From: Pyropia yezoensis
Taxonomy: Eukaryota > Rhodophyta > Bangiophyceae > Bangiales > Bangiaceae
NCBI GenBank assembly: GCA_009829735.1
Contig: CM020618.1
Location: 27,442,894 to 27,506,893 of the forward strand
Direction: 5' to 3'
Length of the DNA: 64,000 nucleotides
The notes beneath the pieces were generated by a model. It made no database searches. It was given only the letters and a program-made list of their open reading frames with translations, and had not been told where the DNA came from. Below, in pieces: positions 1,279 to 49,496 of this stretch. The first letter of the stretch is position 1, and each line of letters begins with the position of its first letter. Made by a program: the position numbers and the translations under genes.

Positions 1279-2137
1279 ATTGTTCATGGATGGGACTGTC
1301 GCTCTCGTGTCTGATAATCTGTTGTGTCGGAGCGAGAGCCTTTATGGCATGCGCATGTTTGGAGTTACGGATTGGCCCCCGTTGGATGGTCGCTCGCACA
1401 TCAGTCGAGTGGCCGCCCAGCCATACGGACTGGACGACAGACAGGTTCGGGACGGTAGTACGCCGAGTCTCATCCGTAGAGACCCCATGCGGGCAGGAAG
1501 CATGAGCGGTCCTGCAGGAGCTCTGCTTCGGCGCAGCGACATAGCCGCTGGGCGTGTGTTTGTGCGCCATGCTGGTCTTTAATGCTCGCGCATGGTTACC
1601 CGGTTGCGTCAACACGACGCTGAAATTCGGACGATTAATTTTTACTTTTTTATATTCACCTCAAAACATGTGTGGAAAACTCGCGCGCTGGTGGCCCGAT
1701 CTGGGTCCTTTACCCACCCCCAACAGCCGGTTCGTGAGCTCTTTTTCCAAAGGGCGAACCGTATCTTCGCCGACACCATCTCTGTCCTTCGCGCTCTTGT
1801 TGCCCCCGGTACCCCTGTCTTACGCTGCATCCTACTCGCTGCGAACGACATACTGCATCCTACTCGCTGCGAACGACATCCTGCTGTTGGAGAGCATCCC
1901 GCGCAGCATTAGGTCGTCTTCACTGCACTCCACGCGGCTCGATTGCGCCAGGCGTCGGGCGCTCGCCCGGTCTCCCTTGCCATCGGGCCCTGTCTCCTCC
2001 GGGACGGGACGGGAGCCGCCCCACCAACTGCAAGTGCTGCCCGGCTGTACATCGACTTTTCGGGTCCCACTTGGCGTCTACTGTGCTGGCGCGCTTCGTC
2101 CTCCAATTTCCTCATGCTTCCGGTGCTGCGGTCCGGC
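1279..2137. other. Gap between the upstream ORF and the helicase
   Basis: No convincing coding frame. It contains an AT-richer patch near 1630-1680 and a perfect 28-bp direct duplication at 1825-1880. It may hold an unrecognised intron or the 5' region of the helicase gene. Confidence 0.4.
1825..1880. repeat. 28-bp tandem duplication
   Basis: Two adjacent copies (1825-1852 and 1853-1880) of a 28-bp unit beginning CTGCATCCTACTCGCTGCG. The copies are almost identical. Confidence 0.8.
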
Positions 2138-3608
2138 ATGAGCTTTGACCTGGACGAGTCGCAGCACGCGGCACGGGAGGCCTATCTGACATCCAAGAAC
2201 GTGGGGTTGTTCGGTCGCGCCGGGTGCGGCAAGTCCGCCGTGCTGCGCCGGTGTATCGCGCATGCCCAGCGAGTGCACGGCAGCGGGAGGGTAGGTATTC
2301 TGGCCTGGTCCAACGAGGCCGCCAACCTCATTAATGGCGTGACTCTGCACAAGTTCTTGGGGGTGGGCATTGCTGAGCTGCCGAAGGACCGCGTTCTTGC
2401 GGCCGTGCGGGCGCGGCACGTCGTCAAGGAGAAAATCATGAACATCAAGGTCATCATCTTTGACGAGCTTCCGATGGTCTCTGCGCGCTGGTTTGACGTG
2501 GCTGAGGACGTTGTTCGACAACTCGCCCTGCCCCACAAGCAGGCACGTCCATGGGGCGGCTGTCAAGTTATTGGTGCGTATCCAGGGGTTACTGTCCATG
2601 TACTTCTCTTCTTTGATGAGTAGCCTGGTAGGTTGTGCCGTTGGAGCGCTTTCTTCGCTCATTTTCAGCCATCTGACAGCACATCTGTGCATCTTCTACT
2701 GTGTCTCCTGCTCCCGCACCGATACTGCACTTCTTTTTCCTTACATTGTAGTTGCTGGTGATCCTTTGCAGCTCGGTCCTGTCCACCGCAACCGGGCCAG
2801 CTCGGACTCCCTCGTCTACCAGTGCCGCACTTTCCGCGATTCCTTCGTCTCGCGGTGGGGGATGGTAGCACTTCTCAGTGGCTTCCACCGGCAGTCGCCC
2901 ACCTCGTGGTTCTCTGCCTGTCTGGACCGTATTCGTTTGGGCTCTGTCACAGACACGGACCTGGTTGTCCTGAACGCCACTTCCGACGGCGTGTCGGATA
3001 CCGCGTGGAACTCCCGCACGCAGTTGCGCGCTTTGAACCGTCAGGTAGCTCCGTTTAACGAGCTGAAGATGCGTCAACTGTTTGGCGTGGAGCACGTCTA
3101 CGAGAGCTACGACGTGGTCAGCGAGGGCATCGTCCATCCGAGCCGGCGCGCGTACGCGTTGAGTCGCGCCGCGAGCTTAGCGCCGCCAAGCGTGACGCTC
3201 AAGCCAGGGGCGACCGTCCTCACTACCAGAGAGGTGAGCGGCACCCCGACGGCCACTCAAGGCGTGGTTCTCCAGTGCCTGGAAGCAAGTGTGGTCTGCA
3301 GGTTTGGGGAGAAGACCGTGCAGGTAGAGTTCCTTGGGTTTGACTTCGTTGACAATTGCAACCAGCGACTGGTCACTCGATTTTGCATCCCTCTTACTCT
3401 GGCATGGGCGATGACCATCCATCGGGCGCAGGGTGCGTCCCTGGAGACGCTGGCGGTGGACTTTTCTGATATGCATTGGCGAGAGCAAGGTCTTGCTTAC
3501 TCGGGGATGTCTCGGTGCATGGCATTCGAGAGCCTGTTTGTGCGGGGTTTGCGGCGGGAGCATATTGTTGTGTCTGCTGACGCGTTGGCTTTTTACGAGA
3601 GCATGTAG
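2138..3608 (+). CDS. PIF1-like DNA helicase, two exons
   Basis: Superfamily 1B helicase of the PIF1/RecD type, an ATP-dependent 5'-3' DNA helicase fold. Exon 1 is 2138-2573 and exon 2 is 2752-3608. Exon 1 holds motif I/Walker A (GRAGCGKSAVLR, about residue 25) and motif II (IIFDELPMVS). Across the splice junction the frame reads into motif III (AGDPLQLGPV), which supports the intron. Near the C-terminus is MTIHRAQGASL, the UvrD_C_2/motif V-VI region, followed by YSGMSRC. The protein is about 430 aa, at the short end for PIF1 proteins, and has no recognisable extra domain. ATG at 2138 was chosen because it lies just before the Q-motif-like DESQ; exons further upstream are possible. Such helicases are common as mobile-element cargo in algae and oomycetes, so this need not be the cellular PIF1. 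Confidence 0.8.
2574..2751 (+). other. Spliceosomal intron in the helicase
   Basis: GTGCGT donor after 2573 and TTACATTGTAG acceptor ending at 2751, 178 bp. Removing it joins a Val codon and gives the expected PIF1 motif III order. Confidence 0.8.
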
Positions 3609-5500: not shown

Positions 5501-5505
5501 CCTCA
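5501..5505. repeat. Target-site duplication, left copy (element 1)
   Basis: CCTCA directly before the left LTR. The same five bases follow the right LTR at 16252-16256. Confidence 0.95.
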
Positions 5506-5867
5506 TGTAGCACAATAGGGATCCGTCGCACATCCACTCTCAGGGAACACTCACCAAGGGGGATCGGCACCAACGTCACCGGGAGGCCAAGGTTGCTGTC
5601 CTTGGAGCGCAAGCCACGGGACCAAGATGGGAGCCCAAATGGGAGGGGTTTGTTGTTCTACCTTGGCCGGCGGTGGATTCGCCACCGGCCCCCTCGTTAT
5701 AAACCCTCGGAGACACTACTAACTACCCTCCACCCCAAGATGCAAGTCCCTCTGGTCATACGTAACTTATAGATACCGTGACCAGTACGGACTCTCAATT
5801 GAAAGTTAAGGATTAGAAGTAGCCCCCTTAATATTAGGGTCACAGTACGGACAACCATATTGCTACA
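5506..5867 (-). repeat. Element 1, 3' LTR (left)
   Basis: 362 bp, starts TGTAGCACAATAGG and ends CATATTGCTACA. Nearly identical to 15890-16251. Confidence 0.95.
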
Positions 5868-5881
5868 TATCCCCCCCTTAG
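5868..5881 (-). promoter_or_regulatory. Polypurine tract, element 1
   Basis: On the minus strand TAAGGGGGGGATA directly precedes the 3' LTR, the usual plus-strand primer for reverse transcription. Confidence 0.75.
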
Positions 5882-6339
5882 ATTCGGCCCGTCCTCGGGT
5901 CGAGTTGCATTCGGGTTACCGAATGTAAGTGGGTCGCGTGACCGTTTACCCGTCGGGTGGGGCTTTGCGCCCCGTCGCGACAGACACCGCTTTTCGAGGT
6001 TGTCTGAGGGGGGTGCCCCCCTTTGTGTGGTACACACACGATCCGTTTTCCGGACCGTTAGATTCCCGATGCGGGTTTCTGTTCACGACCCCCCTTTCCG
6101 AGGGGTGGTGCAAGCGGATCCGCCACCAGGTGCCTGGTGGTAGGGGGGCCCCTCTCGTGTGGACGATTGAGTGGGGGGCGGGGGCTGCCCGCGTTACGTG
6201 GGGGCGGTTGGGGGTGACCCCCCCTCGATTACCCCGTGTGGGGGGGGCGTGGCCCCGCCCCAGGTGCCTGGCGGGAGCGCCCTCGTAGGTCGGCTGGCGC
6301 GGGTCGTCCCGCGCTTCCCTATCGCTGGTGCCCAGCTGT

Positions 6340-6350
6340 TTGGTTATAAG
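6340..6350 (+). promoter_or_regulatory. Possible TATA box for the antisense ORF
   Basis: GGTTATAAGCG lies about 110 bp before the ATG at 6458, in otherwise very GC-rich sequence. It could drive the opposite-strand ORF from inside the element. Inferred from position only. Confidence 0.35.
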
Positions 6351-6457
6351 CGCGGGTGCCCGCGCTTCCCTGGCTCGTCCGTGCGAGCGTTCTCTGTACC
6401 GGGTCGAGCCGGCCTCGGCTTTTCTGCAAGGGGCGCCCCGGCCACCCCGGTTGCACC

Positions 6458-8827
6458 ATGTCGGACCCCCAGGTACCCGGGGGCGAGGACGACCTCCTGC
6501 CTGAAGAGGGGGAAGAGGTGATGGTGGACGACGTTCCCGTCTCCGCCACCGCCGCCGAGTGCTTCCTAGCGAGCTCGTCGGAGGACGAGGACGACCGGGT
6601 GACCGTTCGTGTGGCCCCGGACGGTGCTCCGGGCGGTTTGTCGTCCGTGTGCAGCGGCACAACGGCTCCGTCGGGTGGCGGGCAACCGCGGGTAGCTGCT
6701 GCGTCTACCCCTACTCCTCCGGCGGCCCGGATGGCTTCTGTCGCCGGTGCCGGCGCGGCTCAACCTCAAGACGGCGTCGCCGGCGTGTCGGGCGGTTATG
6801 GTGGCAGCCCGACTGGGACGGCGGGTCAAGACGGCGCGGGTGCCCGCCCGGGTGGTTTATCCGCGGCTGCGGGTGGCGGGTCTACCCCTGCTGCCCCCGA
6901 GGTGCCCCCGTCGGGCTCGGGTGGCGGCGTTGCTCTGCCCGCGGTGCCGCGGGCGTCTGGCGGTCAAGGTGGGTCTACACCGATGGCAGTGGACTCCGGT
7001 AGTTACTCCGGGCGGGCGCCCGCCCTTCTTCTTCCTCCTCGGCCGCGTGCGACTCCAGCGCCGGCCCCTCTTCCGGTGGGGCATCCCCCGGCGGCCCCTA
7101 TTCTTCCTGGTCCTGCCCGGGTTGCCCCGTTGGGTGGCGGCGTCGCCGTGGCGGCGGGTCAACCCGCCATGTCGATGTTCGACTTGGTGGCTCGGGTTCG
7201 AGGCCTGACTGTACAAGAGTCAATGGAGTCCGATGGGCGGATGCGGGTGGACTTCCACCTGCCACATCCCCGTGGAGAGCCCTCCCGGCGCGTCAAGGTG
7301 GACCCGAATTGGGAACGGGAGTTGATGCGGCTGGTCAACCAGCCGAACGCGGTGCGAGTGGAACACCATTGGATCCTGAGTCAGCCGGACGACCGGCATG
7401 CGCAGCTCTGGCGTACTCGGGTGGGACGGGGTGAGGTCTACCTCGACCCCGCCTTCGGGGTATGCGACCTGATTGCTCCCGCGTTGCCGCGGGAGATTGA
7501 CTACCCGGCTAGTGCTCGGGGGATTGCGGCGGCGGCGGAGCCGGTTGCGTTTGGGGAGACGGTGGGCAGTACCGGTCGGTATCCCGACTTTGATTACTAC
7601 CCGGGGGTATCCCCGTATCTGTCGTTGACGGCTCCCTACCCGCCTATGGCGGGGTTGAAGTCGGCGTCGAGCTGGCGACGTAACCATGGTGTCATGACGG
7701 ATGCGTTTCGCACGGATATAACGTGTGCGTTGCAGACCGGCAACGGTTGTGCGCCGGTATACACTCCCGTGCGCCCGCCGCTATGGCAGGAGGGGTGGGA
7801 ACCCGCCCCTGCTTTCCGGTTTGACACCGGCTCCTGTCTCCGATACTTCGGGAGTGTGTTGGCCTCCCGGCCGGTCCACCCGTTGCAAGGTACCTTTACC
7901 CTTGAGGTTACCCTCGGGCAGGCGTCCTCCTTCTTGCTGTCCGTCCGCCGGCAGGGGCGCCTGTTTCATCTTCCGACGGGTGTCCGTCGGCACATCGCGC
8001 AGTTGGGCGTGGACCTGATAGCTGCCAAGACCGGGTTGGCCCGGGAGTTCGAGGCCCTGCTGGCTGTTCACGATGCCGTGAACTGGGTTGGGGTGCTGGC
8101 CCTTCCCCCGTACCGGGACCCGCAGGCTGGGGCTACCCCCTTGCCTCGTCACTCGTTGCGTATCCGGCGTACTCAGCCGGGTGAGCCTAGTTGCCATGGG
8201 TGGGCGTCCACCGAGGCCGTTCCTGACCTGGGTATTCCCATGGTTATCCATGACCCTCTTCAGGTCCTTGCCCCGTGGTTCGGTAACCCGATACCGGCGG
8301 CGGTTGGCCGTCGTCCCCGAGAGTGGGGCTCTGCGGGTGGGGAGCGTGAGGTGTCCCGTCGTCGGGCGGAGCCCCGCCGGGGTTACGGTGGAGCCCCTTC
8401 GGTAGGGTCCTACCGAGCCTCGTATCAGGTGCCACCGGCTCCGGTGGTAGCCGTGTCGGCTCCTCTGGCTCCTATGGCTGCGCCAGTGTCCGCTCCCGCC
8501 CCTGTCATACAAGACGGGGGTCCCCGTCTCTGGTATGAGGGCGTTGACGCCCTTGTTGCCCGCGCAATGCGGGAGGGTCTCTCTGTTAGCTGGGGTGATA
8601 TCCCCCCAGGTGCTGCGCTAGTTGGGTCAGCGCGTTGCTTCGGTGGCGTGCTGGACCGCCTCCCGAAAGCTCTGGAGGACGTGGAGGCTGGCCGCAGCAC
8701 CCTCGTCCAGCTATGCACCGAGGTAACTCGGGTGATCGACCGACGTGACATTGCCGACCGGTGGAGCACGGAGGTATACGCGCTTACGCGTGAGTGGCCT
8801 CCCTCGAGCAGTGGGTCTACCCACTGA
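6458..8827 (+). CDS. Element 1 antisense ORF protein (conserved accessory gene)
   Basis: 789 codons on the strand opposite to gag-pol, between pol and the 3' LTR. ATG at 6458 (CACCATGT) opens onto an acidic N-terminus (EDDLLPEEGEEV, SSSEDEDD), then a long Gly/Ala/Pro-rich linker to about residue 235, then a folded-looking region (about 240-620) containing VRRQGRLFHLP near residue 495, a disordered linker, and a C-terminal domain beginning at RLWYEGVDA with LVQLCTEVTRV. No known family recognised. The middle and C-terminal regions match by eye the antisense ORFs of elements 2 (17234-19177) and 4 (46276-48392). There is no signal peptide or clear membrane segment, so it does not look like an envelope protein. 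The role is unknown; a Gag-like or regulatory protein is possible. Confidence 0.75.
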   Translation: MSDPQVPGGEDDLLPEEGEEVMVDDVPVSATAAECFLASSSEDEDDRVTVRVAPDGAPGGLSSVCSGTTAPSGGGQPRVAAASTPTPPAARMASVAGAGAAQPQDGVAGVSGGYGGSPTGTAGQDGAGARPGGLSAAAGGGSTPAAPEVPPSGSGGGVALPAVPRASGGQGGSTPMAVDSGSYSGRAPALLLPPRPRATPAPAPLPVGHPPAAPILPGPARVAPLGGGVAVAAGQPAMSMFDLVARVRGLTVQESMESDGRMRVDFHLPHPRGEPSRRVKVDPNWERELMRLVNQPNAVRVEHHWILSQPDDRHAQLWRTRVGRGEVYLDPAFGVCDLIAPALPREIDYPASARGIAAAAEPVAFGETVGSTGRYPDFDYYPGVSPYLSLTAPYPPMAGLKSASSWRRNHGVMTDAFRTDITCALQTGNGCAPVYTPVRPPLWQEGWEPAPAFRFDTGSCLRYFGSVLASRPVHPLQGTFTLEVTLGQASSFLLSVRRQGRLFHLPTGVRRHIAQLGVDLIAAKTGLAREFEALLAVHDAVNWVGVLALPPYRDPQAGATPLPRHSLRIRRTQPGEPSCHGWASTEAVPDLGIPMVIHDPLQVLAPWFGNPIPAAVGRRPREWGSAGGEREVSRRRAEPRRGYGGAPSVGSYRASYQVPPAPVVAVSAPLAPMAAPVSAPAPVIQDGGPRLWYEGVDALVARAMREGLSVSWGDIPPGAALVGSARCFGGVLDRLPKALEDVEAGRSTLVQLCTEVTRVIDRRDIADRWSTEVYALTREWPPSSSGSTH

Positions 8828-9080
8828 GGAGTGTTATTGTTTGTACGGGAGAGGGACCCGGTGGCCCTTATGGTGGCCGGGTAGTAGTGAGTGTAAACTC
8901 ATCCCCCGCTGGGGGCATTGCTTGCCTCTGTTTGCTGCCCTGGGGAGTACCCCTTCTGGCTCAGTGGTGCCTTGCCTCCCGCCCAACTTCTTCCGGTTGG
9001 TTCATGCTTGGGGAGGTCATCCTCCCTCACTTTGTGTCTTGGCTAGGGGAAATCATCCTCCCGTGTAAGCCCCCTAGTTA

Positions 9081-9099
9081 CTTCGATATTATCGAAGTT
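9081..9099. terminator. Perfect palindrome between converging ORFs
   Basis: ACTTCGATATTATCGAAGT forms an 8-bp stem with a 3-nt loop on either strand. Confidence 0.4.
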
Positions 9100-9139
9100 A
9101 GCCTTTACCTTTAAGTTAACTTATTAAGGTTCAGGTTTT

Positions 9140-9231
9140 ACTTAGTTACCTAAGCTTGACTCAACTTAGTTGCCTAAGCTTGGTTCGACTTAGAAACCTA
9201 AGTCTGATTTGACTTAGAAACCTAAGTCTGC
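9140..9231. repeat. Four 24-bp tandem units, each a hairpin
   Basis: Units start at 9140, 9164, 9188 and 9212. Each holds CTTAG, a short loop, and CCTAAG, so each can fold into a hairpin. Units 3 and 4 are nearly identical (ACTTAGAAACCTAAGTCTG). They lie between two convergent reading frames, which suggests a termination/processing or binding-site array. Confidence 0.75.
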
Positions 9232-9306
9232 CATAACCATGTCACACCCTACTTAGTAGGTATAAGCCTCACCCCCCAACAGCCGAAGTCGGTGTCGGTT
9301 GGGTTG

Positions 9307-12300
9307 TTACAGTAGGCGTCGTCGCCTCATGTAAGGCATGAGTAGTTGGCGGGGTATATTCGCCGCCTGTTCCCAGGTGGGTGAGTCGTATCCGACCCAC
9401 ATAACCTTGACGTACCAGGGTCCTGGTAGGTCCGGGTCGGTGTGTCCGACCACGCTCTCTACTTGGTATGGAATCCCATCCGGTCCCACCGGGTCATCTG
9501 ACCGGTGGGTTGTAAGAGCTTCATGTAGCAACCCAGCCGGTGCCGGCTGAGGCTGTTCCGGCTTCGGAGCAGGTGTGACATCATTCACACTGATGCGTTG
9601 GATCTCCGTATCGGAGTGGAAGATAACAGAGTGGTCATCTCTGTGGAGAATCTGGTACGGTCCCTTGACCGGTTGCATGAGCTTGTTCCCTCGGAACTTC
9701 TGGTGTCTGATGTAGACCCAGTCACCTGTTATCAGGGTAGCGTTGCGCACCCGTAGTCGGGCGTCGAAGTTCTTCTTGTAACGAAGTTGTGTTCTGTCAA
9801 GGGCACCCTTGAGCTTCGGTATCATCCACGATAGCTTAAACAACCAAGCTAGGTGTATACGTTCGGCCGGTCGGCCCTTCGGTGTATCATACCGAGTGCA
9901 CCTGCCGGGTGGCAGCGTCAGGTTACCGACGCCTAGTGGCATGACCCACTCCAGCGGAGCGATGTTGGTGCTCCGATGTGGCCTGGCATTGTATGCCAGG
10001 GTGAGTACGGACAGAAGCCTGTCCCAAGTGTTCGTGTGCTCGGCCACGTAGCACTGTAGCATCTTGACGATGGTGCGGTTGAACCGCTCCACCTGCCCGT
10101 TGGTTTGCGGGTGGTTGTCGGATGCCCGACGTGGTTCGATGCCGAACATGCCCAGGACCTTAGTGCAGAATGCTGAGGTAAGGTTTGCTCCGTTGTCGGA
10201 GAGGAGTTGCCTCATGACTCCGTATGCACTGATCCAGTGGTCAACCACTGCGTTCATGATGGTGTATGCCGTATCATTCGGGATGGCTGCCGCTCGTGAC
10301 AGCTTAGTGAAGCGGTCAGACATGACCAGGATGTACCTGTTCCCTTCTTCCGTTACCGGAAGTGGCCCGAGTATGTCGATAGCGACTTGCTCGTTGGGCC
10401 CATCGGGTGGGAATAGCTTCATGGCAGACGCCTGCTTATGTAGACTCATGCGGTTACGCGCACAGGGGTGGCATCCCCTTACGTGGTCGACCACGTCGAC
10501 GGCCATTGCTGGCCAGTAGAAGAACCTTCGCATTGCTGCGAACACACGTGAACCCCCCGGGTGTCCGGCTGTGGGGTTCTCGTGTTCTCGTTCCAAGACG
10601 GCTTGCCGTAAGGACACGGGAACCACGACTTGATGTCGTCCATCGGCGGGTGCCCGCCGGTATATGAGTCCGTCTTCGTTCTCGGAGAAGATGCCGGCCG
10701 TACCGGCCAGGAGGTTAGCGCGATGACGTTTACAGTCGTCGTCATTGGCTTGTGCCTCGCGGAAGTCCGCGAGGGTTAGTGGGCATGCTCGGTGTGCCAT
10801 GGTATGGTCAACCATACCTTGGGTAGCGTTACCCACCATGCAGACCGGTACCACCGGGATGTCCTCGTCCACCGGGCGGGTATCCCCGCTCGGGGTGTCG
10901 AGTCGAGACAATGCGTCTCCGAGATGGTGGGTTGACCCAGCCTTATACACGGTGCGGTAGTCGTGCTCGGCCATCTTCAACCTCCATCGGGCTAGCCTCC
11001 CATGGCTATCGGACTCCTTGTCACCAAGGTTGAGGAGCCATCGTAGGGGTTCGTGGTCGGACCTCACGATGAACCTGGAGCCCTCCAGGTATGGACGGAG
11101 CAGTTGCACTGCCCATATAACTCCGAGGCATTCACGCTCGGTGGCAGTATAGTTACGCTCAGCCGGGTTGAGTGTCCGGCTGAAGTATCCTACCGGACGT
11201 AGGTCCGGGATGACGTTATCGGTACCGATCAACGTCTCCCCCTGTAGCAGGGTGCATCCCACTTGGGTGTCGCACGCATCGACATCGATGACGAAGGTAC
11301 CCCGTCTGTGCGGTAACGCAAGGACGGGTGGGGATAGTAGGGCTCGCTTCAGCGACTCGAATGCCTCCTCTTCGCTAGGCGAAGGGGGTTGGAGTACCTT
11401 GGGTAAGGTACTGCTCGTAAGAACCGTTAACGGTTTAGCTATCCGAGCGAAGTCCTTGACGAACCGTCGGTATACATTGCACATTCCCAGGAAGCTCTTG
11501 AGCTGCGTCTGGGTGTTAGGGAACCAGGCATCCCGGAGTGCCCGGGTATTGGCTTCGAGTACCCCTAGTTTACCAGGGGTTATCTGGTGGCCCAGATACT
11601 CGACCGTATGTTGGAAGAAGGCGCACTTCTTCAGACGCAGGGTTACCCCGGCGTTCCTCAAGAGGGTGAGTACCTCGTCAACATGTTGCACATGGTCATC
11701 CATGTTACGCGAGAAGACGATGACGTCATCGAGGTACACTAGGCAGTTACGCCACTTCACCCCCGACAGTAAAATGTCGATAGCCCGCTGGAATGTAGCG
11801 GGGGCGTTGGACAATCCGAAGGGCATCCTTAGGAACTCGTACACTCCACTGTGACAGACGAATGCCGTCTTGGGGATATCCTCGTCCGCCACCGGGACCT
11901 GCCAGTATCCGGCATTGCAGTCGATGGTGGTAAACACCGTAGCTTCCCCCAGGGAGTCGATGCATTCATCCATCCTTGGTAAAGGGTAGGAGTCCTTCTT
12001 GGTAACCAAGTTGAGGCGTCGATAATCGATGCAAAACCGAGGGGTTTGATCCTTCTTCGGTACGATAACGACTGGGGCACCCCACTCCGACATCGAAGGT
12101 CGTATCACCTTCGCTTCACTCATCCTCTTCACTTCTCCATCAACGATCTCTCGTTGCATAGGTCCCGCTCGGTGCGGTTGTGACCTGGCGGGGCGTGCGC
12201 CTGGTACCAGGTCAATACGATGTTGGGTTGCCCCAATGGTACCCAGGGCTCCGCCTGTCCACATGACGTCATGCTTTCTTAACATCCGTCGTACCCCTTC

Positions 12301-13473
12301 GGCTACGGAAGGGGGAAGGTGGTCGAGGTCAGCCTCGGCCAGTGCCTGCAATGCTTCTTGGTCCTTCGGCGGAATATCCGCCGGTAATGATGGTCGACTA
12401 GGCTTCCCGTCATCGGGTTGCTGTCGCTCGGTGGTCTCGGCGACCGCCAGCACCTCAAGTGGGTCCACCTGACCTTCCTTGTCAGGGGAAAGGGTATCTC
12501 CTTCGTAGAGCTCGGCAATCCCGAGGATAGTTCCCTTCGGGAGGGTGACTGCCTTACGGCGATAGTTCGCCATCACTAGGAGGGACGACCCTCCTGATGG
12601 GAGGTCTATGAGACCGTTGGCCATGGTCAACCCATGGCGCTTGTACGTCCGCAAGTTGGACTTGACTCTGCAGATGCCTGCGAGGTCACAGTTAACCGGG
12701 AGGACTGTCTCCGACAACGGCTCAAAGCGAGTTCGCTTGGCCAACCGAAGTGTCTTCGGCTCGACACTTGCGTACACCTCAGCCACGTTAACGTGGCTCC
12801 CTTGTAGCGTCAGGTCCCTGACGATAGCCGTGTGTCCTCGCTTCGTCCCGTCGGCTTCTTGAAGCTCGACGGTCCTCCGGCCTGGCCGGATTGCATCAAC
12901 GTGAACGTTGATGAAGGTGCACCCCAGTATGCAGGGCACCGATAGGGTCTCACACACCAGGAAGTCGACTTCCGTGGTGAGTTCCCCGATGGTCACCCGC
13001 AGCGACATCGCTGCGGTCGTACGAATGAGGCGACCATTCGCGTCCTTGATGGTGGGTCCCCGAGTCACTCTGACTCGCGGAAGCCACTTGTCCGGGAGGG
13101 TATCCTTCCGGATAAGGTTGGGTCCAGCCCCTGTATCCAGCACAGGGTAGTACGATCGTGTCGACTGGGGGTCAACCCCCAGTGTGGCTGATACCTTGAA
13201 GTTCTCCAAGGTAAACAGCACGTGGCCTACACCGATATCCGGTGTAGCTCGGGCATCCTGAACAGGGCCCTTGTCTGGTTCCATGTGACGGGGCTTCCCG
13301 TCCTCTCCTCCCAACCTTGGTGGTTGGTCATCAATCCCCTGACGCCGTGTCGTCGGGGCCGGAAGGTGTACCCGGGGGTTGATGCGGCGTCGGCTCAACC
13401 GCGCTCTCCGTGGGGCTTTCCCCGCGGTACTCCGGGGTGGCTTGCTTGGGTGACCCCAGCGCCCCCCGGTCAT
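9307..13473 (-). CDS. pol: Element 1 Pol polyprotein (PR-RT-RH-INT-chromodomain)
   Basis: 1388 codons, intact. Order: aspartic protease with VLDTGAGPNLI (about residue 112); reverse transcriptase with FCIDYRRLN and the catalytic YLDD (about 578); RNase H with VIDVDACDTQVGC and later IVRSDHEPLRWLL; integrase with an HHCC zinc domain (REHENPTAGH ... GCHPCARN), a DDE core (AIDILGPLP, LLSDNGANL near 1091) and HPQTNGQVERFNRT; and a C-terminal chromodomain-like segment (YVKVMWVGYDSPTWE). The gene order and chromodomain mark a Ty3/Gypsy chromovirus. The start is ATG at 13473, 8 nt after the stop of the Gag zinc-knuckle frame and in a different frame, so Pol may be made by reinitiation rather than fusion. 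Confidence 0.93.
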   Translation of the reverse strand: MTGGRWGHPSKPPRSTAGKAPRRARLSRRRINPRVHLPAPTTRRQGIDDQPPRLGGEDGKPRHMEPDKGPVQDARATPDIGVGHVLFTLENFKVSATLGVDPQSTRSYYPVLDTGAGPNLIRKDTLPDKWLPRVRVTRGPTIKDANGRLIRTTAAMSLRVTIGELTTEVDFLVCETLSVPCILGCTFINVHVDAIRPGRRTVELQEADGTKRGHTAIVRDLTLQGSHVNVAEVYASVEPKTLRLAKRTRFEPLSETVLPVNCDLAGICRVKSNLRTYKRHGLTMANGLIDLPSGGSSLLVMANYRRKAVTLPKGTILGIAELYEGDTLSPDKEGQVDPLEVLAVAETTERQQPDDGKPSRPSLPADIPPKDQEALQALAEADLDHLPPSVAEGVRRMLRKHDVMWTGGALGTIGATQHRIDLVPGARPARSQPHRAGPMQREIVDGEVKRMSEAKVIRPSMSEWGAPVVIVPKKDQTPRFCIDYRRLNLVTKKDSYPLPRMDECIDSLGEATVFTTIDCNAGYWQVPVADEDIPKTAFVCHSGVYEFLRMPFGLSNAPATFQRAIDILLSGVKWRNCLVYLDDVIVFSRNMDDHVQHVDEVLTLLRNAGVTLRLKKCAFFQHTVEYLGHQITPGKLGVLEANTRALRDAWFPNTQTQLKSFLGMCNVYRRFVKDFARIAKPLTVLTSSTLPKVLQPPSPSEEEAFESLKRALLSPPVLALPHRRGTFVIDVDACDTQVGCTLLQGETLIGTDNVIPDLRPVGYFSRTLNPAERNYTATERECLGVIWAVQLLRPYLEGSRFIVRSDHEPLRWLLNLGDKESDSHGRLARWRLKMAEHDYRTVYKAGSTHHLGDALSRLDTPSGDTRPVDEDIPVVPVCMVGNATQGMVDHTMAHRACPLTLADFREAQANDDDCKRHRANLLAGTAGIFSENEDGLIYRRAPADGRHQVVVPVSLRQAVLEREHENPTAGHPGGSRVFAAMRRFFYWPAMAVDVVDHVRGCHPCARNRMSLHKQASAMKLFPPDGPNEQVAIDILGPLPVTEEGNRYILVMSDRFTKLSRAAAIPNDTAYTIMNAVVDHWISAYGVMRQLLSDNGANLTSAFCTKVLGMFGIEPRRASDNHPQTNGQVERFNRTIVKMLQCYVAEHTNTWDRLLSVLTLAYNARPHRSTNIAPLEWVMPLGVGNLTLPPGRCTRYDTPKGRPAERIHLAWLFKLSWMIPKLKGALDRTQLRYKKNFDARLRVRNATLITGDWVYIRHQKFRGNKLMQPVKGPYQILHRDDHSVIFHSDTEIQRISVNDVTPAPKPEQPQPAPAGLLHEALTTHRSDDPVGPDGIPYQVESVVGHTDPDLPGPWYVKVMWVGYDSPTWEQAANIPRQLLMPYMRRRRLL

Positions 13474-13481
13474 CCTTCCTC

Positions 13482-15671
13482 TTACTCGTTTCCCGCTCTT
13501 GGTAGGGTGCTGTCCGCCGGGACATCCGGCTGAGGCGGTGCCTCCTCGACGGCCAGTACTCCACCTGGAGCTGGCTGCCTACCCGGTGCGGGTCCGGGTG
13601 CTCTGGCGGGATACCCCCCTGTGGATGCCTTGCGTTGCGCCGCTGCCCTCCGAGACTCCTCGGGGATAAGTGGGCAGGAAGACACCCAGTGCTGGGGATC
13701 CCCGCACAACATACATCCGGACGTGCCGGTCTCCCCTTGAGTTCGCATCGGGGTAGCCCCGTAGCTGCGGCTGCCTCCCTCGGGCGCCCGAGTGCCTGCT
13801 CCCTGTTAGGCCTTGGGTCCTTGGGTCAACCGGAACATGGACTCCCCCAACCGGTTGGGTCGGCCCGCAATCTGCGGAGGTGCCTCCGTGCGCACCGCCC
13901 ATGTTGGCAAGGGTTGGTGAGGGTTACCCGTCACCGGGGAGTACCCCGTAGTCCGCACATACGGGACGCGCCGTCCCGTTCCTTCGTTGACCTGGAACTG
14001 GGTTCCAGCCGGGGCGATGTACGCTACCGTTCCATGTTCATCAATCACCGGCGTCGCCGGTAGCAACAGGTGGCCCTGTTGGTCGACTAGAGGTTCATCC
14101 TCACCAATAGGGGTATATTCGGTCGCCACCAGTACTGGTGCGGCCTTACGTTCCACCTTCTCTTGCCTCGGTACCGGGGTAAGACTGGGTTTGCCTCCCT
14201 CACCCTTGGGCTTCGGGGCCAAGGTACATTCCGGGTGTAGCACCCGGTAGGCGTCCCCTAGGGACTTGCACATGTGCATCAGTCGAATGAAGTTCGTCCG
14301 GGCCGTATTGGCTCCCCGAGCGGATGTTCGCACGTAGTTGGGTACTCCTGCGAACAGGATGGCCCGTAGCTCCCCTTCTCCGAGGAGCTTCCCCAGCTCG
14401 TAGTCGAGCTCTTGGATCCGGCGTCCAAACATCTCCTCATCCTCCCAGCTCTGGGCGGTGGCAGTGCGCAGGGCCCGGTAGTGGTCCTCGCACTTGTCCT
14501 CACTGAGGTAACTGCTCAGCAGCTCCTTGAGAATCCCACGGTAATCCATGGGGGTGGCTGCGACCCTCATTCCCGGCATCGGGGATGCCTGGCGAAGAAT
14601 GCCTCGCACCCGTTCATCAACAAAGAACGGGAGGATCTCCAGGGCCAGCCCCTCGTTGACGAGCGCCTTGTCTGCGGCTGCCTTGAAGCTAGTCAAGAAG
14701 CCGATGAATGCCAACGGGCGTCCGTTCGGCCCCCCGAACATAGGGACTTTCTTCATAAGGGTCTGCATAGAGCGGATCGCCCGATGCGACGTATGACGCA
14801 TCGATTCCGATACGGTGGTAGATCGGTCTTCCAAACGATAACGTTCGGGAGTCAGTACCGACCTGAAGACTTCGTTGACGATCTCCGTGTCGGCGTCCTG
14901 GATATCCAGTCGCTTAGCCAGTTGATGAGCAAACTCATCGGACTCCATCCGCTTCAGTAGGCTCGCAGTTACCTGCGCGGTCATAGCTTCCACCACTGAA
15001 GATGGTACTTCAGGCGTCGGCACCTCGGGAACCCGAGTTGCCTGGCCTCCTTCGTCGTGGGGATACTGTGAGAGGGTACCCCCTCCGCCAATAACCGACT
15101 CTCCACCGGCGTAAGTATCCGCCGGGTCGTGTCCACGGAGTCCGCTTCGGGTGCTCCGAGCGTATCGCTCCGTGTGACTCCGTTCCAACTCTGCCGACGA
15201 GTCGGATCCATACCCCATTGTGTCCGGGGGTTGTCCAGGAGTAGCAACACCGGGGTTGACCCTGGTGGACTCCGAAAGTAGTCCAGCCGGTTCGAACCGT
15301 ACTGGTGTTGGAGGAACACGACGGGGTCCCGTCGTGTGGCGTGTTGACATCAACACTGCCATCGCGTCCTCCGTCCGCTCCTGGCGAGCGTCGAGTCCGG
15401 AAAACCGGGCCTCGATGCGGGCCAATGATGCCATCAGGGAATCCCCTGGTGAGGGAGGCGGCGGAGTGAGGTCGGTCGATGACAGTTGAAGCGGGCCCCC
15501 GCCTCCTGCCGTCCGAGCCGTGCCAAACGTCGATCCGGCACCGGAAAGCATTGGCGTCTCAATGTTGTCGATCGGGTTCCCGATCCCAGCTCCCGTAGTC
15601 ACCTCCGGGGTCGGCGTCGACGCCGATCCGTCATCTTGAACGTTCCCCGTCTCTTGGGTAGACATAGTCAC
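13482..15671 (-). pseudogene. gag: Element 1 Gag with one in-frame stop
   Basis: ATG at 15671 opens a 621-codon frame with a disordered N-terminus (to about residue 220) and a helical capsid-like region (PMFGGPNGRPLAFIGFL through LGEGELRAILFAGVP). The frame stops with TAA at 13806-13808 but continues in the same frame to 13482 and there contains a CCHC zinc knuckle (CMLCGDPQHWVSSC). The stop therefore separates capsid from nucleocapsid. It may be a CAA-to-TAA mutation or a read-through signal; other elements with the same layout have no stop here. The last residues, AGNE, match the Gag end of element 2. Confidence 0.8.
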
Positions 15672-15871
15672 AATCAGTCAACCGACGTAACAGTCACCAC
15701 GAATAAGAGAGCGAGGGGGTAGATTGGGGAGAGTACAGTAGATCACAGTCAAAGGTAAAAACTCAACACAATCGATCAGGTCGCAACACCACGAGTACAA
15801 GAAAAAGACCGGATCCCTATCCGTGTGCCAGGGCCGAAGACGGCGTCACCACAAGGGTGACGGAAACCCGT

Positions 15872-15888
15872 CCCCTGCTGCTCCACCA
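15872..15888 (-). promoter_or_regulatory. Primer binding site, element 1
   Basis: On the minus strand TGGTGGAGCAGCAGGGG starts 1 nt inside the 5' LTR. The same 17-mer follows the 5' LTRs of elements 2 and 3, so all use the same tRNA primer. It implies a tRNA 3' end CTGCTCCACCA, which was not assigned to an amino acid. Confidence 0.85.
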
Positions 15889-15889
15889 A

Positions 15890-16251
15890 TGTAGCACAAT
15901 AGGGATCCGTCGCACGTCCACTCTCAGGGAACACTCACCCAGGGGGATCGGCACCAACGTCACCGGGAGGCCAAGGTTGCTGTCCTTGGAGCGCAAGCCA
16001 CGGGACCAAGATGGGAGCCCAAATGGGAGGGGTTTGTTGTTCTACCTTGGCCGGCGGTGGATTCGCCACCGGCCCCCTCGTTATAAACCCTCGGAGACAC
16101 TACTAACTACCCTCCACCCCAAGATGCAAGTCCCTCTGGTCATACGTAACTTATAGATACCGTGACCAGTACGGACTCTCAATTGAAAGTTAAGGATTAG
16201 AAGTAGCCCCCCGAATATTAGGGTTACAATACGGACAACCATATTGCTACA
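15890..16251 (-). repeat. Element 1, 5' LTR (right)
   Basis: 362 bp, TGTAGC...GCTACA. On the minus strand GGGTTTATAACGAGG holds a TATA-like motif that could be the Pol II promoter of the element. Confidence 0.95.
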
Positions 16252-16426
16252 CCTCAGCCCCAGCGACAATGTTTTCCAAGAGAGCAGCTTCGCTACCCTT
16301 CCCTCCCGCGTCACCCAGATCTTCCTCGGCAGGTGAGGAGGCAGGCATTTTCCTGTCGGGTAGCCCTGCTGCCACGTGCCGCCGCCGCTCGACAGTGACT
16401 TCTTGCAGCGCACTGCAGATGCTGTG
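16252..16426 (-). pseudogene. Unknown gene, middle fragment between two retroelements
   Basis: 175 bp left between element 1 (ends 16251) and element 2 (starts 16427), carrying one copy of each TSD at its edges. It is open in the minus frame that joins 25402 upstream and 5500 downstream, with residues such as ICSALQEVTV and PASSPAEEDLGDAGGKG. The frame is continuous across both target sites once one TSD copy is removed. This places it as the same gene as 3717-5505 and 25397-25659. Confidence 0.8.
16422..16426. repeat. Target-site duplication, left copy (element 2)
   Basis: CTGTG; the same five bases follow the right LTR at 25397-25401. Confidence 0.9.
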
Positions 16427-16895
16427 TGTCGCAAAAACCACAAGCACACACGGCACCCAAGTTGGGGCGGTGTGCTAGGGCCGCCTCCCGTGTCGGGGGA
16501 ACCGGAAGAAGTGCAAGTCGCACACACTCTGTCCCTGTTGTGGGGCAAACCCCCCACGGACAAACAAGAGGATGGTGTGTGGTCCAACAGTTTCTTGGTC
16601 GGGACGGGGACGCAGGGCCAAGCCCCGCTGTCCCTCCCCTTATCCCCCCAGGGTCCACTCAGAATCTCGCCACTCAGAATCTCCCACCCCAGCACCTGCC
16701 CACCGGGCCACACGAAAATTCAAGACGATAAATGCAGAAAACCGTCAAATCCAAGTTGGATTTACTACTAAGCTAACTATCCCAAACTTAGGGAATATGG
16801 ACCCAAATGCAGGGGGAGGAACGGATCAGGCTAGTGGCCTGCCGCCCCTTGCATGGCACGTGTTGCCCCCCTACCTGGGGGTCAATACTGCCACA
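16427..16895 (-). repeat. Element 2, 3' LTR (left, long form)
   Basis: Starts TGTCGCAAAAACCACA and ends GTCAATACTGCCACA. The first ~16 and last ~46 bp match the right LTR; about 407 bp in the middle have no counterpart there. Confidence 0.85.
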
Positions 16896-16915
16896 CTCCC
16901 CTCTCCTCAGTTCCG
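16896..16915 (-). promoter_or_regulatory. Polypurine tract, element 2
   Basis: On the minus strand AACTGAGGAGAGGGGAG runs directly into the 3' LTR. Confidence 0.75.
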
Positions 16916-17233
16916 ACCGACCCGGTCGGCCCTGTGAGGGGGTGCGTAAACGCCCGTCTCGGCGTTGGGGGCGCGACTTGCTGTCCCCCATCGAGTACGT
17001 AACGCGGATGTGGAGGCGGTCACGTTGACCGCCCCTCTCCTCAAGCTTGCCCACTCGGCAGCTTGCTCTCCTCAGTTCACACTTCACCATCACCACCACC
17101 TCCCCTTCACCTTCCACTGGGCCGCCCCACGCTAGGGAGGCCACCCGTATACCCACGATCCGAGTCCCCCTCAACTCGAGGCGGGTCTCGTGCCGCGATA
17201 GCCAGAGCGACTCTCCCCTACTTGGGGAGAGCC

Positions 17234-19177
17234 ATGGCGACTCCGGGAGTGGCGACGGACTCTCTTGACGAGCGCATGGAGGACACCTCCTACGGTGCAG
17301 CACCCGCCGGGACTTCCGGCGGGGGCTCCGCGATCGCTCCGGGGGATGGGACTCCCGCGTCACCCGGCTTTGGGTTGACGGCGGGGTCTCCCCCGGAGGC
17401 GGGACTAGTTGTCCCGCGTGAGCCCTTGGGGCGGTGGTTTTACCCCGCTTGGCCTCTCTATGAGGAGGGGTTGACTGTTCTTCGCTGTGGCCGACTTGGC
17501 GCAGCGATGGGTCGGGTATGGGATCGCCTACGGGAGAAGTATCCCCATAGGGTCGGGTTCCCTGCCGGCTTCAGGACGGACCAGTTTGCCTTCCTGGACG
17601 ATGAGGAGGTTGAGGACGTTCAGCGTGCCAAGGCCATGGTGGACCGCGGGGGAACTATCCCGGGTCCCGGCGACTTGCCGACCTTCACGTGGGACGCTGT
17701 GGCAACTCGCCCGCCGTACCTCCACGAGGCCGATCCGCACACTCATCACTTTGATGTGCGGATGGAGAAAGACTTTCGGCGAGGTCCCTACTTGGTGACC
17801 TCGGCTCAACTTGATTTTCCTCAACAGTCTGCTGCCAGTAAGGAGCAGTACTATCCGAAGAAGCCCGAGTGGTGGCCTCAAGTTGAGGTCCCCTACGGGT
17901 TCCCGGCGTTGTTGCCACGGTTGCTTGACCACTTCGGCTCCGTCATGTTGACGGCTGCCCCTGATCACCTGGTGTGGGCCATGTTGGCCACCCAGTGGCT
18001 CCTCGAGGTCATGTCGACCTGGGTGTCCTGTGTTCAGCGGCGGGGGATGCTCTGGCATCTCCCCCTCCGGCTCATCCAAGGTTTGGAACAGCTCACCCCT
18101 CAGCTAGTTGCTGAGGGATGCTCATCAGGACAACTCACTCTACTTGAGGAGGTGCTCCGGCTCCATAAGTTTATCGAGTGGGAGAGCATTGAGCACAAGT
18201 TGCGCCGCCCCACTCGTGGGCCCAAGGACGATGGCGCACTTCGCCAGTTCGTGTGGGTCGCTCGTGAACTTCACGACGGCCGTGTGGTCCTACGAGAGGG
18301 GTTGGGCATCGGGGACTACCCGTATGCCCCGGGGGTGGATCGCCACACTGCGCCACCCCCGGAAAAGCCCATAGTTCTGGCTGTGCCCTCATATGATGAC
18401 CATATGACTCAACCTACTGCGGGGGCCCCAAGTCGGGGTCGCAGTTACACCCGGGTACCGACACCTCGGCGGGCCCCTCCGCTTCCTCCTGTTCCTTTCC
18501 AACCTCACGGGAACATCCCGATCAGCGTGGCCGTGGAGTCTTCCACCCCGGTGTCCCCCAACTTGGGGGCCACCCTCCTGACGGTATACCCCAAGTTGGT
18601 GTTGCCGCCCACGCCTCTAACCTCAGAGATGATGATCACCACGTTGGTGCGCACCATTTCCTGGTTGCCCGCGTCGACCGCAACCCTACAGAGTTCCGAG
18701 ACTCCTCAACTTGAGGAGCGCGTTCGTACTGCAGTGGCGACCGCGAGTTGCGAGTCGGTGGCGGAGTTTATGACAGCCGAGTTGGCTCGTATTGGGGCTA
18801 TTATGCCCCAGCCAGCCCCACTTGGGCGTGGCAAACGTCGCGCGAGCCGGGCATACTCGCCTCCTCGCCGTCGTCGCCGACACTCGCGGCGCTCTCCTTC
18901 CGTATCGGAAGACGAGTTGTCTTACTCCGTTTCGGAGTCCTCTACCCCGTCGGAGACGGAGTCTGTCCAGCGTCTGCGTCGCAAACTTGCGCGCAAGACC
19001 AGGCAGAAGAGTGGCCACGGTCGGCGCCACTTGCGCGACCGTGAAGGGCGCGACGGTTCCGACTTGGAGCCGCCGCCCCTTCCAACGAGTGGAGACCGTT
19101 ATTGGCGTGGGTCTCGCCGCTCGCCTCCACGTGAGGGCGAGGGCCGTGGAGTGGGAGAGTCTAGCATGCGTGCCTAG
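17234..19177 (+). CDS. Element 2 antisense ORF protein (conserved accessory gene)
   Basis: 647 codons on the strand opposite to gag-pol, between pol and the 3' LTR. ATG at 17234 is in good context (GAGCCATGG); the frame is open upstream to 17063. A short disordered N-terminus (to about residue 65) is followed by a folded-looking region (about 70-370) with YYPKKPEWWPQVEVPYGF and, at about residue 266, VQRRGMLWHLP, then a Pro-rich linker. The last ~120 residues are strongly basic with Arg/Ser clusters (SRRSPSVSE, PPRRRRRHSRRSP), suggesting nucleic acid binding. It resembles the antisense ORFs of elements 1 and 4 in the folded part but has this different, Arg-rich tail. No known family recognised. 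Confidence 0.75.
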   Translation: MATPGVATDSLDERMEDTSYGAAPAGTSGGGSAIAPGDGTPASPGFGLTAGSPPEAGLVVPREPLGRWFYPAWPLYEEGLTVLRCGRLGAAMGRVWDRLREKYPHRVGFPAGFRTDQFAFLDDEEVEDVQRAKAMVDRGGTIPGPGDLPTFTWDAVATRPPYLHEADPHTHHFDVRMEKDFRRGPYLVTSAQLDFPQQSAASKEQYYPKKPEWWPQVEVPYGFPALLPRLLDHFGSVMLTAAPDHLVWAMLATQWLLEVMSTWVSCVQRRGMLWHLPLRLIQGLEQLTPQLVAEGCSSGQLTLLEEVLRLHKFIEWESIEHKLRRPTRGPKDDGALRQFVWVARELHDGRVVLREGLGIGDYPYAPGVDRHTAPPPEKPIVLAVPSYDDHMTQPTAGAPSRGRSYTRVPTPRRAPPLPPVPFQPHGNIPISVAVESSTPVSPNLGATLLTVYPKLVLPPTPLTSEMMITTLVRTISWLPASTATLQSSETPQLEERVRTAVATASCESVAEFMTAELARIGAIMPQPAPLGRGKRRASRAYSPPRRRRRHSRRSPSVSEDELSYSVSESSTPSETESVQRLRRKLARKTRQKSGHGRRHLRDREGRDGSDLEPPPLPTSGDRYWRGSRRSPPREGEGRGVGESSMRA

Positions 19178-19288
19178 TTGGCAGCTGCCTTTGTTGTGAG
19201 AGTGTGAGGGTTAGGGCTGTAGTTAAAAGCCACTCTGCGTACCACTTCGACTTGAAGCACTCTCTTGGCACTGTTGCTCGGCCTTCCC

Positions 19289-25239: not shown

Positions 25240-25315
25240 GGTCCAAGTCCACCGTTCCTCTGAGACAGAGGGCCCCCTACACCCGGGTGCACCCGGAGGT
25301 AAAATTTACCTCTGT

Positions 25316-25332
25316 CCCCTGCTGCTCCACCA
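25316..25332 (-). promoter_or_regulatory. Primer binding site, element 2
   Basis: Same 17-mer as in element 1 (TGGTGGAGCAGCAGGGG on the minus strand), 2 nt inside the short 5' LTR. Confidence 0.85.
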
Positions 25333-25334
25333 AA

Positions 25335-25396
25335 TGTGGCAAAAACCACATGCATGGCACGTGTTGCCCCCCTACCTGGGGGTCAATACTGCCACA
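25335..25396 (-). repeat. Element 2, 5' LTR (right, 62-bp form)
   Basis: TGTGGCAAAAACCACA joined directly to TGCATGGCACGTGTTG and ending GTCAATACTGCCACA. It has both LTR ends, a correct TSD and an adjacent PBS, but lacks the ~407-bp middle of the left LTR. Confidence 0.85.
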
Positions 25397-25659
25397 CTGT
25401 GAACCCCGATAGCAATCTGCGCATCAGCCTGGGTATTCGCTTTGCCAACCGTCGGCTCCAGGTACCCGGACGCGTACAGGAGGACGCCACCAGGGCTGCC
25501 GGCGCGCGCTGCAGTGACTGACAGGAGGATTTCATGGGACGTGCACAGCTCCAGCTGTGCGCACGTCTCCTGCAATACCTGCGTCAAGAAAACAAAAGCG
25601 TGCGTAGAATGGAGCCCAAGAAGCTGAGCAGCGTCCCCAGCTGTTGACAGCTCATCCAT
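25397..25659 (-). pseudogene. Unknown gene, 5' part (start codon fragment)
   Basis: Minus-strand ATG at 25657-25659 begins MDELSTAGDAAQLLGL and runs, open, to the CTGTG target site. It continues in frame at 16426 once element 2 is removed. The protein has a helical N-terminal half and a strand-rich stretch (GGVLLYASGYLEP). No signal peptide. The family is not recognised. The upstream sequence is a degenerate repeat tract, so the promoter region is unclear and an upstream exon cannot be excluded. Confidence 0.7.
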
Positions 25660-42059: not shown

Positions 42060-42632
42060 TGTAGCATCCCTGGCCCTGACTCGGCGTCGACCCGGGACTG
42101 CGACCAAGGGACACCGAGTGCCAGGACACGCCCGCCGTGTGGGGATCGTTGGCGGCCGTAGCCCGTGCCCGGCACTGGGATGCGGTGGACTACTCTACCC
42201 ATACGTGAGAAAGGGACTTCTGATGGGTTTTTGCATACTTGTGAGGGACTTGATTTGAAAGAATTTGACTGTGAGATTAGTAAGGGGGAATAAAATTAGT
42301 AGTGTTAGTGGCCCCCGACCTGACGAGGTTAGACTCGGGTCGGGGCCACTCGGGGATATGGGGGGGGCTACCAGGCCAGCGTGCCGAGGCTCCCCCAGAT
42401 GCACGTCAAAAGGGACAGCGAGGCGCCCTTGGCCCGCGCCCGCAGGGAAAAAGACAACAGCGCGTTTGCTTTCCTCTTCCCCGTGTGCACCACCGTGCGT
42501 ATTTGTTGGCTCTGCCAGCAGGCCCGTGAGGCAACAGGCATACCACCCTCGTAGTTCCCCTTTCTGTGTTACCTGTCCCTTTCCCCCGAGGGATATTGAC
42601 ACGTGTCTGAGAGGATCGAGTTTTATACCACA
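42060..42632 (+). repeat. Element 3, 5' LTR (573 bp)
   Basis: Starts TGTAGCATCCCTGGCC, ends GAGTTTTATACCACA. Related copies, both inverted, lie at 45752-46086 (internally deleted) and 54908-55478. Confidence 0.85.
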
Positions 42633-42636
42633 TATT

Positions 42637-42653
42637 TGGTGGAGCAGCAGGGG
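42637..42653 (+). promoter_or_regulatory. Primer binding site, element 3
   Basis: TGGTGGAGCAGCAGGGG, 4 nt after the LTR; identical to elements 1 and 2. Confidence 0.85.
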
Positions 42654-42842
42654 AACGGAGTGTTTGAGAAGAGACATTTGGGAGCAGTGGTTGGGTTGTT
42701 CCTGTTCTGTCCTCTTCTGTGGTTTGGGAATTATTTTGCACCCGTTCACGGGAATCCCATTCCTGGCTCCCCAACCCCTCTCTTGTGGTCTGGCGATCTT
42801 TGGACACGCAGGCAACTGAACTGTGGCTGTCAAGAGACCAAC

Positions 42843-45751: not shown

Positions 45752-46086
45752 TGTGGTATAAAACTCGATCCTCTCAGACACGTGTCAATATCCCTCGGGG
45801 GAAAGGGACAGGTAACACAGAAAGGGGAACTACGAGAGTGGTATGCCTGTTGCCTCACGTGCCTGCTCGCAGAGCAAACAGATACGCACGGTAGTGCACA
45901 CGGGGAAGAGGAAAGCAAACGCGCAGTTGTCTTTTTCCTGAGGGCGCGGGCCAACGGCGCCTCGCTGTCCCTCTTAACGTGCATCTGGGAGAGCCTCGGC
46001 ACGTTGGCCAGGTAGCCCCCCCATACCCCCGAGTGGCCCCGACCCGAGTCCCGGGTCGGCGCCAAGTCGGGGCCAGAGATGCTACA
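45752..46086 (-). repeat. Element 4, 3' LTR (335-bp form)
   Basis: Starts TGTGGTATAAAACTCG and ends GAGATGCTACA on the plus strand; the reverse of the element 3 LTR. It lacks about 240 bp between CCCGAGTC and CCGGGTCGGC that are present at 54908-55478. Confidence 0.85.
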
Positions 46087-49495: not shown

Positions 49496-49496
49496 A

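Follow-up and report, generated by a model that had tools for sequence, protein, structure and literature searches.

Evidence for a conserved antisense accessory gene in Ty3/Gypsy retrotransposons of the red alga Pyropia yezoensis

According to the available text of its genome description (PMC7423979), the main repeats of the red alga Pyropia yezoensis are long terminal repeat (LTR) retrotransposons. A 64,000 nt stretch of this genome (assembly GCA_009829735.1, contig CM020618.1, positions 27,442,894 to 27,506,893 of the forward strand), hereafter the window, contains the Ty3/Gypsy retrotransposons referred to here as elements 1, 2 and 4, in which a gene lies on the strand opposite to gag and pol; the labels e1, e2 and e4 are used for these elements and for their families, and L-numbers for loci fetched from the genome. 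Element 1 (5506-16251, minus strand) has a primer-binding site and a purine tract at the expected positions and is flanked by a 5 bp target-site duplication, CCTCA (5501-5505 and 16252-16256). The primer-binding site, TGGTGGAGCAGCAGGGGAC on the element strand, adjoins the 5' LTR (15890-16251, minus strand), whilst the 3' LTR (5506-5867, minus strand), with TG..CA ends, is 98.3% identical to it. The gag open reading frame (ORF; 13806-15665, minus strand) matches that of e2 by blastp (E 7e-14), and pol (9307-13473, minus strand) encodes protease, reverse transcriptase, RNase H and integrase as detected by Pfam. The antisense ORF occupies 6458-8827 on the plus strand, starting 590 bp inward of the 3' LTR and leaving 479 bp between its end and that of pol; it is an open frame of 789 aa, with a conserved core at approximately 7526-8095 (aa 357-546).

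Element 2 (16427-25396), also of the Ty3/Gypsy type, has a comparable arrangement. Its antisense ORF (17234-19177, plus strand) is an open frame of 647 aa with the core at approximately 17621-18190 (aa 130-319) and an Arg/Ser-rich C-terminal part; by the ORF coordinates it ends 111 bp from pol (19289-23272, minus strand), which was identified by Pfam and has a chromodomain match below the cut-off (E 9.7e-4). The gag ORF (23269-25215, minus strand) contains a zinc knuckle detected by Pfam, and a purine-rich tract adjoins the 3' LTR (16427-16895, minus strand). The two LTRs are unequal, the 5' copy (25335-25396, minus strand) being only 62 bp long, against 469 bp, and missing the interior of the 3' LTR; the target-site duplication CTGTG (16422-16426 and 25397-25401) is nonetheless kept.

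In element 4, the 3' LTR (45752-46086, minus strand) is shorter than its 5' partner (54908-55478, minus strand), which is 97% identical to it over 299 bp, and a 3' fragment of pol (48538-49497, minus strand) retains the integrase end and a chromodomain, both under the Pfam cut-offs. The antisense gene is present as two plus-strand pieces in different frames, 46276-47259 (327 aa) and 47259-48113 (284 aa), the residues of which appear by eye to be continuous in the open L046 protein. Twenty-nine other copies of the gene were fetched from this family, and 20 of them have a single 705 aa frame; hence it is the window copy that is broken. A sequence-only reading of the window had described a long antisense ORF between pol and the 3' LTR in all three elements; this holds for e1 and e2, where the gene is convergent with pol, tail to tail, but not for the e4 window copy with its split frame. 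The primer-binding sites of the three elements are nearly the same. At 42060-44602 lies an inverted relative of the e4 LTR (91%), and after it come two plus-strand ORFs, of which the first is related to the e2 gag (E 6e-21); beyond them, no intact pol ORF of at least 150 aa with an obvious match was seen by eye.

The same reading had proposed, from motifs matched by eye, that the three antisense proteins are related, and computed comparisons bear this out. Using blastp, the e1 and e2 proteins match at E 3e-9, and e2 matches the window e4 piece at E 4e-5. Alignment of family profiles with hhalign joined e2 to e1 (E 2e-5, probability 77%) and to e4 (E 6e-5, probability 65%), whereas e1 and e4 gave only E 0.0076 and a probability of 5%, with the motifs in the same order; these profiles are shallow, as the input alignments hold near-identical copies, and e4 was represented by relatives, as it was in most tests (by L047 or by database protein P0002). 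When the cores were shuffled, the real score was reached in none of 500 cases for e2 with e1 or for e2 with e4, and in two of 500 for e1 with e4 (e4 being relative L047). As the direct similarity between e1 and e4 is weak, and e2 resembles both, the link between them runs through e2 and the further families described below. Two of the motif pairs picked out by eye, VRRQGRLFHLP with VQRRGMLWHLP and YYPK..VEVPYGF with YYPK..EIPVGF, recur in the computed alignments; the pairing of LATQWLLEVM with AANHWLHEVL was out of register, the latter aligning to VMSTWVSCVQ of e2. The proposed C-terminal match between e1 and e4 is borderline: one of 500 shuffles reached its score, and a test with a C-terminal profile was negative.

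Copies of the genes were sought throughout the genome (107.5 Mb in 11 contigs). The places listed are the best-scoring ones; open copies are over-represented among them, and the number of copies is in each case a minimum. Among the listed matches, the e1 protein found 57 places, 44 of them without a stop, and the e2 protein 68, all stop-free; a 121 aa query from the e2 core found at least 150 places, with no stop in any of the 150 listed. The first part of the e4 protein found 122, of which 118 lacked a stop and most had longer open frames.

Selection was assessed through the ratio of nonsynonymous to synonymous differences (pN/pS), pooled over pairs of copies that are not independent of each other. 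The ratio was 0.087 for e2 (all eight fetched copies; pairs 0.03-0.40), 0.229 for e4 (20 of 30 loci; pairs 0.04-1.29) and 0.346 for e1 (seven of ten loci; pairs 0.26-0.68), the remaining ten e4 and three e1 loci having been dropped for not being full-length open copies. The C-terminus of pol at the same loci gave 0.104 in e2 (six of eight copies open) and 0.143 in e1 (four open, the pol end having been found in seven of the ten fetched), such that the constraint on the e2 antisense gene is about that on pol. In one e2 pair (L004 and L008), pN/pS was 0.06 in the frame of the ORF, against 0.17-6.2 in the five other frames. Within 100-codon windows, the values were 0.03, 0.07 and 0.08 over codons 101-400 of e2, 0.06 and 0.05 over codons 101-300 of e4, and 0.29, 0.28 and 0.23 over codons 301-600 of e1, in which they rose to 0.89 in a linker. 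The substitution-rate check suggested in the sequence-only reading has therefore yielded a clear signal: the antisense ORF is a real coding gene, lying between pol and the 3' LTR and convergent with pol in the window, and it is kept by purifying selection.

In order to look beyond the three window families, the integrase profile PF00665 was used, which listed at least 150 places; 15 of these were fetched, not at random, but for their long pol frames and differing scores. Fourteen are Ty3 elements, the other (L063) looking Copia-like by inference. All or part of the antisense core was found in nine of the 14, only the C-terminal part in one, and none of it in four. The e2 family accounts for L049, L051 (in two frames), L053 (from residue 215 on), L055 and L062, and the e4 family for L050; L054, L057 and L059 each represent a new family. 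L060 retains only the C-terminal piece, which is 97% identical to that of L065. Two loci without the core lie close to carriers: the pol of L056 is 95% identical to that of L057, beside which it stands in the pol tree, as does L061 beside L059. From these positions the core has probably been lost in L056 and L061; these two and L060 may be deletion derivatives. A further four loci, L065-L068, were chosen by their antisense match alone, and the end of pol was found on the opposite strand in all four, within about 50 bp in L067 and recognised in L065 by its last 26 residues only. In L050, L054, L057, L059 and L065-L068, where only the pol side was mapped, the end of pol likewise lies beside the antisense gene on the other strand.

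This gives ten families: e1, e2, e4, L054, L057, L059, L065, L066, L067 and L068, the last having an interrupted frame and being left out of the alignments. The first 112 residues of L054 were omitted from later alignments, and only its first 387 residues were used in alignment A8. Protein queries found 83 places for L059 (identities down to 36%), 78 for L067 (down to 41%) and 65 for L054 (six at 87-100%, the rest at 25-36%), again among the listed matches. The lists for e1, the e2 core, e4, L059 and L067, together with the six close to L054, sum to 496 places (57+150+122+83+78+6); a single copy is in some cases represented by two pieces, and stops occur at many places of the later lists.

A profile built from the three window families scored 64 bits against L059, 57 against L065, 52 against L057, 16 against L067 (E 0.001), 12 against L066 (E 0.02) and 7.4 against L054 (E 0.4), whilst the best of 3,000 shuffled sequences reached 7.1 bits; all six new families exceed this, L054 narrowly. 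The L054 match is not significant in this test, and the protein is instead linked via e2, L066 and L067, with each of which none of 500 shuffles attained the real score. In pairwise local alignments, none of 500 shuffles matched the score of the e2 core with any of the eight other families. Judged by such similarity, at about 20% identity between families, the antisense proteins of the ten element families belong to one protein family. The C-terminal parts are less clearly related: with a profile from L057, L059 and L065, the sequences of e1, e2, e4 and L067 could not be told apart from shuffles, and of 500 shuffles one reached the score of e1/e4, two that of e4/L057, one that of L057/L067 and none that of L059/e2, with several other distant C-terminal pairs scoring no better than shuffles.

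Constraint is also apparent between families, the ratio of nonsynonymous to synonymous substitution rates (dN/dS) being 0.23 for L057/L059, 0.26 for L057/L065, 0.35 for L059/L065 and 0.22 for L066/L067, at dS values of 0.9-1.6; for the pol of L057/L059, dN is 0.074 and dS 0.88, a ratio of 0.085. Over seven families, antisense and pol identities are correlated (Mantel r 0.91, a value attained in 16 of 5,040 permutations). Both trees join L054 with L067 and have a clade containing L057 and L059; the deeper branching is partly open in each, and long branches lead to e1 and e2 in the pol tree and to e1 and L054 in the antisense tree. This agreement of distances supports, over the seven families, the view that the antisense gene descends along with its element, and suggests that the two have been inherited together. 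The proposal that Ty3/Gypsy elements of red algae have a conserved antisense accessory gene is supported: profile similarity, a dN/dS signal and further copies were all found.

The proteins have a common layout, in which a Pro/Ala/Gly/Ser-rich N-terminal part of variable sequence precedes the conserved core (about 200 residues), with a C-terminal part following it. The N-terminal parts, which vary in length, and the linkers differ between families; the core can be read by eye from the alignments as P.W...VE.P.G...LP...YF...L..(A/S)D..AW....E......A..WL......G.L..LP..L..WI. Arg-rich C-termini containing RS pairs occur in e2, L066 and L067, with 24, 20 and 22 Arg and Lys residues respectively in the last 100, and L054 has an RS-rich stretch further in. 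No Pfam family exceeded its cut-off for any antisense protein (the window proteins, their cores and six further proteins). The sole match, that of PF20084 (TrbK) to the first e4 piece, was rejected as due to chance (E 0.03; 14.8 bits against a cut-off of 23.9). A profile search of the PDB gave no match at E values up to 10, and e2 and e4 queries to the protein database returned only the near-identical P0001 (95%) and P0002 (99%). No relative was found in a collection of viral contigs (queries e2 and L059) or of prokaryote genome contigs (query L059).

The suggestion that the host elements are chromovirus-like is borne out. The chromodomain PF00385 was detected in the pol of L067 above the cut-off (E 4.8e-9) and below it in L059 (1.9e-5), the e4 fragment (1.6e-4), L054 (5e-4) and, as given above, e2; in the e1 pol, Pfam reported none at E values up to 1, and a chromodomain-like end is visible by eye only. 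The pol of L054 runs on past the chromodomain into a stretch (L054:1-1839; G000:C1:34413950-34415788) matching the Dam DNA N6-adenine methyltransferase family PF05869 (E 2.8e-7; 30.8 bits against a cut-off of 28.1). L067 is akin to L054 along this stretch (46% over 592 aligned residues), with no Dam match at E values up to 1. Elsewhere in the window, two overlapping plus-strand ORFs at 2114-3608 resemble, by eye, pieces of a helicase, which we take to be perhaps PIF1-like or from a Helitron, and at 56807-57650 a long GC-rich repeat array lies inside an ORF coding for Gly/Arg-rich repeats.

Taking these results together, we regard it as probable on balance that these elements carry a third, antisense gene, encoding a single protein family that is maintained by selection, inherited with the element and active as an accessory regulator in the nucleus. 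On the analogy of gene23 of Grande elements, and of the arguments advanced for TRP28 of Retand elements, an antisense promoter of the gene's own, in or beside the 3' LTR, would drive its transcription, and the translated product would act in the nucleus as an accessory protein on element RNA, chromatin or integration. The core may be a protein-interaction domain, and the basic tail could serve in nuclear entry or nucleic-acid binding. By this analogy a nuclear accessory protein seems the most likely product.

Several observations weigh against this account. Four of the Ty3 loci (L052, L056, L058 and L061) have no match to the core at E 1e-3, so the gene is not in every Ty3 family. The e1 and e4 antisense proteins do not match by blastp, and for only 23 of 36 pairs of cores did none of 500 shuffles reach the real score. 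The constraint on the e1 antisense gene is weaker than that on its pol, codons 301-400 of e4, which are partly core, have a pN/pS of 0.27, and between L057 and L059 the antisense gene is again less constrained than pol. Two close pairs, L057/L059 and L054/L067, carry much of the Mantel correlation. The tail of the e1 protein is not Arg-rich, having 12 Arg and Lys and 14 Asp and Glu residues in its last 100, and two AlphaFold2 models were unusable (mean predicted local distance difference test scores of 32.5 and 33.5); both place four helices over the core, which at such confidence is a hint only.

The main rival is a role in the particle, in which the antisense protein would partner Gag in structure or assembly, diverge at about the rate of gag and be translated from an antisense mRNA of its own. 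The rates are compatible with this, as the e1 and e2 antisense cores are 24% identical and the gags 24-25%, and as the constraint on e2 is close to that on pol; however, such an mRNA could not be co-translated with Gag, and the RS- and Arg-rich tails of some families would better fit nuclear proteins. Comparison of three gags with nine antisense proteins by blastp gave nothing better than E 0.04, and derivation of the antisense protein from gag likewise found no support in it. We consider the particle role unlikely. Still less probable is a single capture, by transduction or nested insertion, of a host gene or of a different mobile element that has since been carried as cargo. The absence of a relative in the elements' own gag and the variation of N-terminal parts and linkers between families would be expected of a capture, but the side of pol and the orientation are constant in every carrier of which the context was read, antisense distances agree with those of pol, and no relative was found in Pfam, the PDB or, near-identical entries aside, the protein database (e2 and e4); the genome places were not checked for single-copy host homologues.

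It is also conceivable that the antisense transcript is itself functional, through double-stranded RNA or interference with the gag-pol RNA, and that the frame is a by-product. Convergence with pol could yield overlapping RNAs, and silencing by double-stranded RNA has been raised for plant antisense ORFs in the available text of PMC7264820; yet the constraint is at the level of codons in the frame of the ORF, and similarity between families persists at the protein level at their low identity, leaving this explanation very improbable. A non-coding antisense RNA as the whole story is disfavoured by the pN/pS values. An Env-like or membrane protein for cell-to-cell transfer can practically be dismissed: whilst the site between pol and the 3' LTR is that of env in retroviruses, the opposite orientation means that the product could not arise by splicing of the genomic RNA, and no clear transmembrane segment was seen in the hydropathy of nine antisense proteins, the best 19-residue values being 0.98-1.54 in eight and a borderline 1.78 in L066.

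In the available text of PMC7264820 and PMC11963269, the antisense accessory ORFs described for Gypsy elements come chiefly from flowering plants, a single fungal case being mentioned, and no red-algal case turned up in the open-access literature searched. In Retand elements of flowering plants, which are likewise Gypsy elements with antisense ORFs between pol and the 3' LTR, the TRP28 domain (PF04195) is present in 57 of 104 ORFs and 97% of clusters, and a regulatory role has been proposed (PMC11963269, available text). Retand is described there as a non-chromovirus lineage, whereas several of the algal pols have a chromodomain at the integrase C-terminus, and HMMER detected no TRP28 match in the window proteins, in those of the other families or in the genome. 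Hence the likeness to antisense ORFs of the plant Tat lineage, drawn in the sequence-only reading, extends to position and orientation, with no common domain found.

Compared by description (PMC7264820, available text), gene23 of Grande and the ORF of RIRE2 designated aORF-3R, both from grasses, have the position and orientation seen in e1 and e2; gene23 has a promoter of its own for its transcription, and its product is nuclear. The algal gene too occurs in many copies with conservation like that of other element proteins (e2 to about the same degree as pol, e1 less so). Outside plants, Boty of Botrytis cinerea and Sclerotinia sclerotiorum has an antisense ORF in the same placement (same source, again by description only), and in human T-lymphotropic virus 1 (HTLV-1), a complex retrovirus, the antisense strand codes for HBZ, a regulatory protein of the nucleus (PMC11963269, available text), to which the algal protein may be likened in manner of working only. 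The presence of one protein family in ten red-algal element families, under purifying selection and in e2 with a constraint near that on pol, indicates that the antisense gene is a real and long-kept part of the element, and offers a new alignment for asking what antisense accessory genes do; the many copies in this seaweed genome could also pass for host genes in annotation. On sequence grounds, the algal protein is a new family within the known kind of antisense accessory ORF, and not a TRP28 protein. There is an even chance, in our estimation, that red-algal chromoviruses are ambisense, with a third, antisense gene, akin to nothing known and important to their success, kept since a common ancestor that existed before their integrases had diverged to 37% identity, and constituting a second origin independent of that of TRP28 and Grande in flowering plants.

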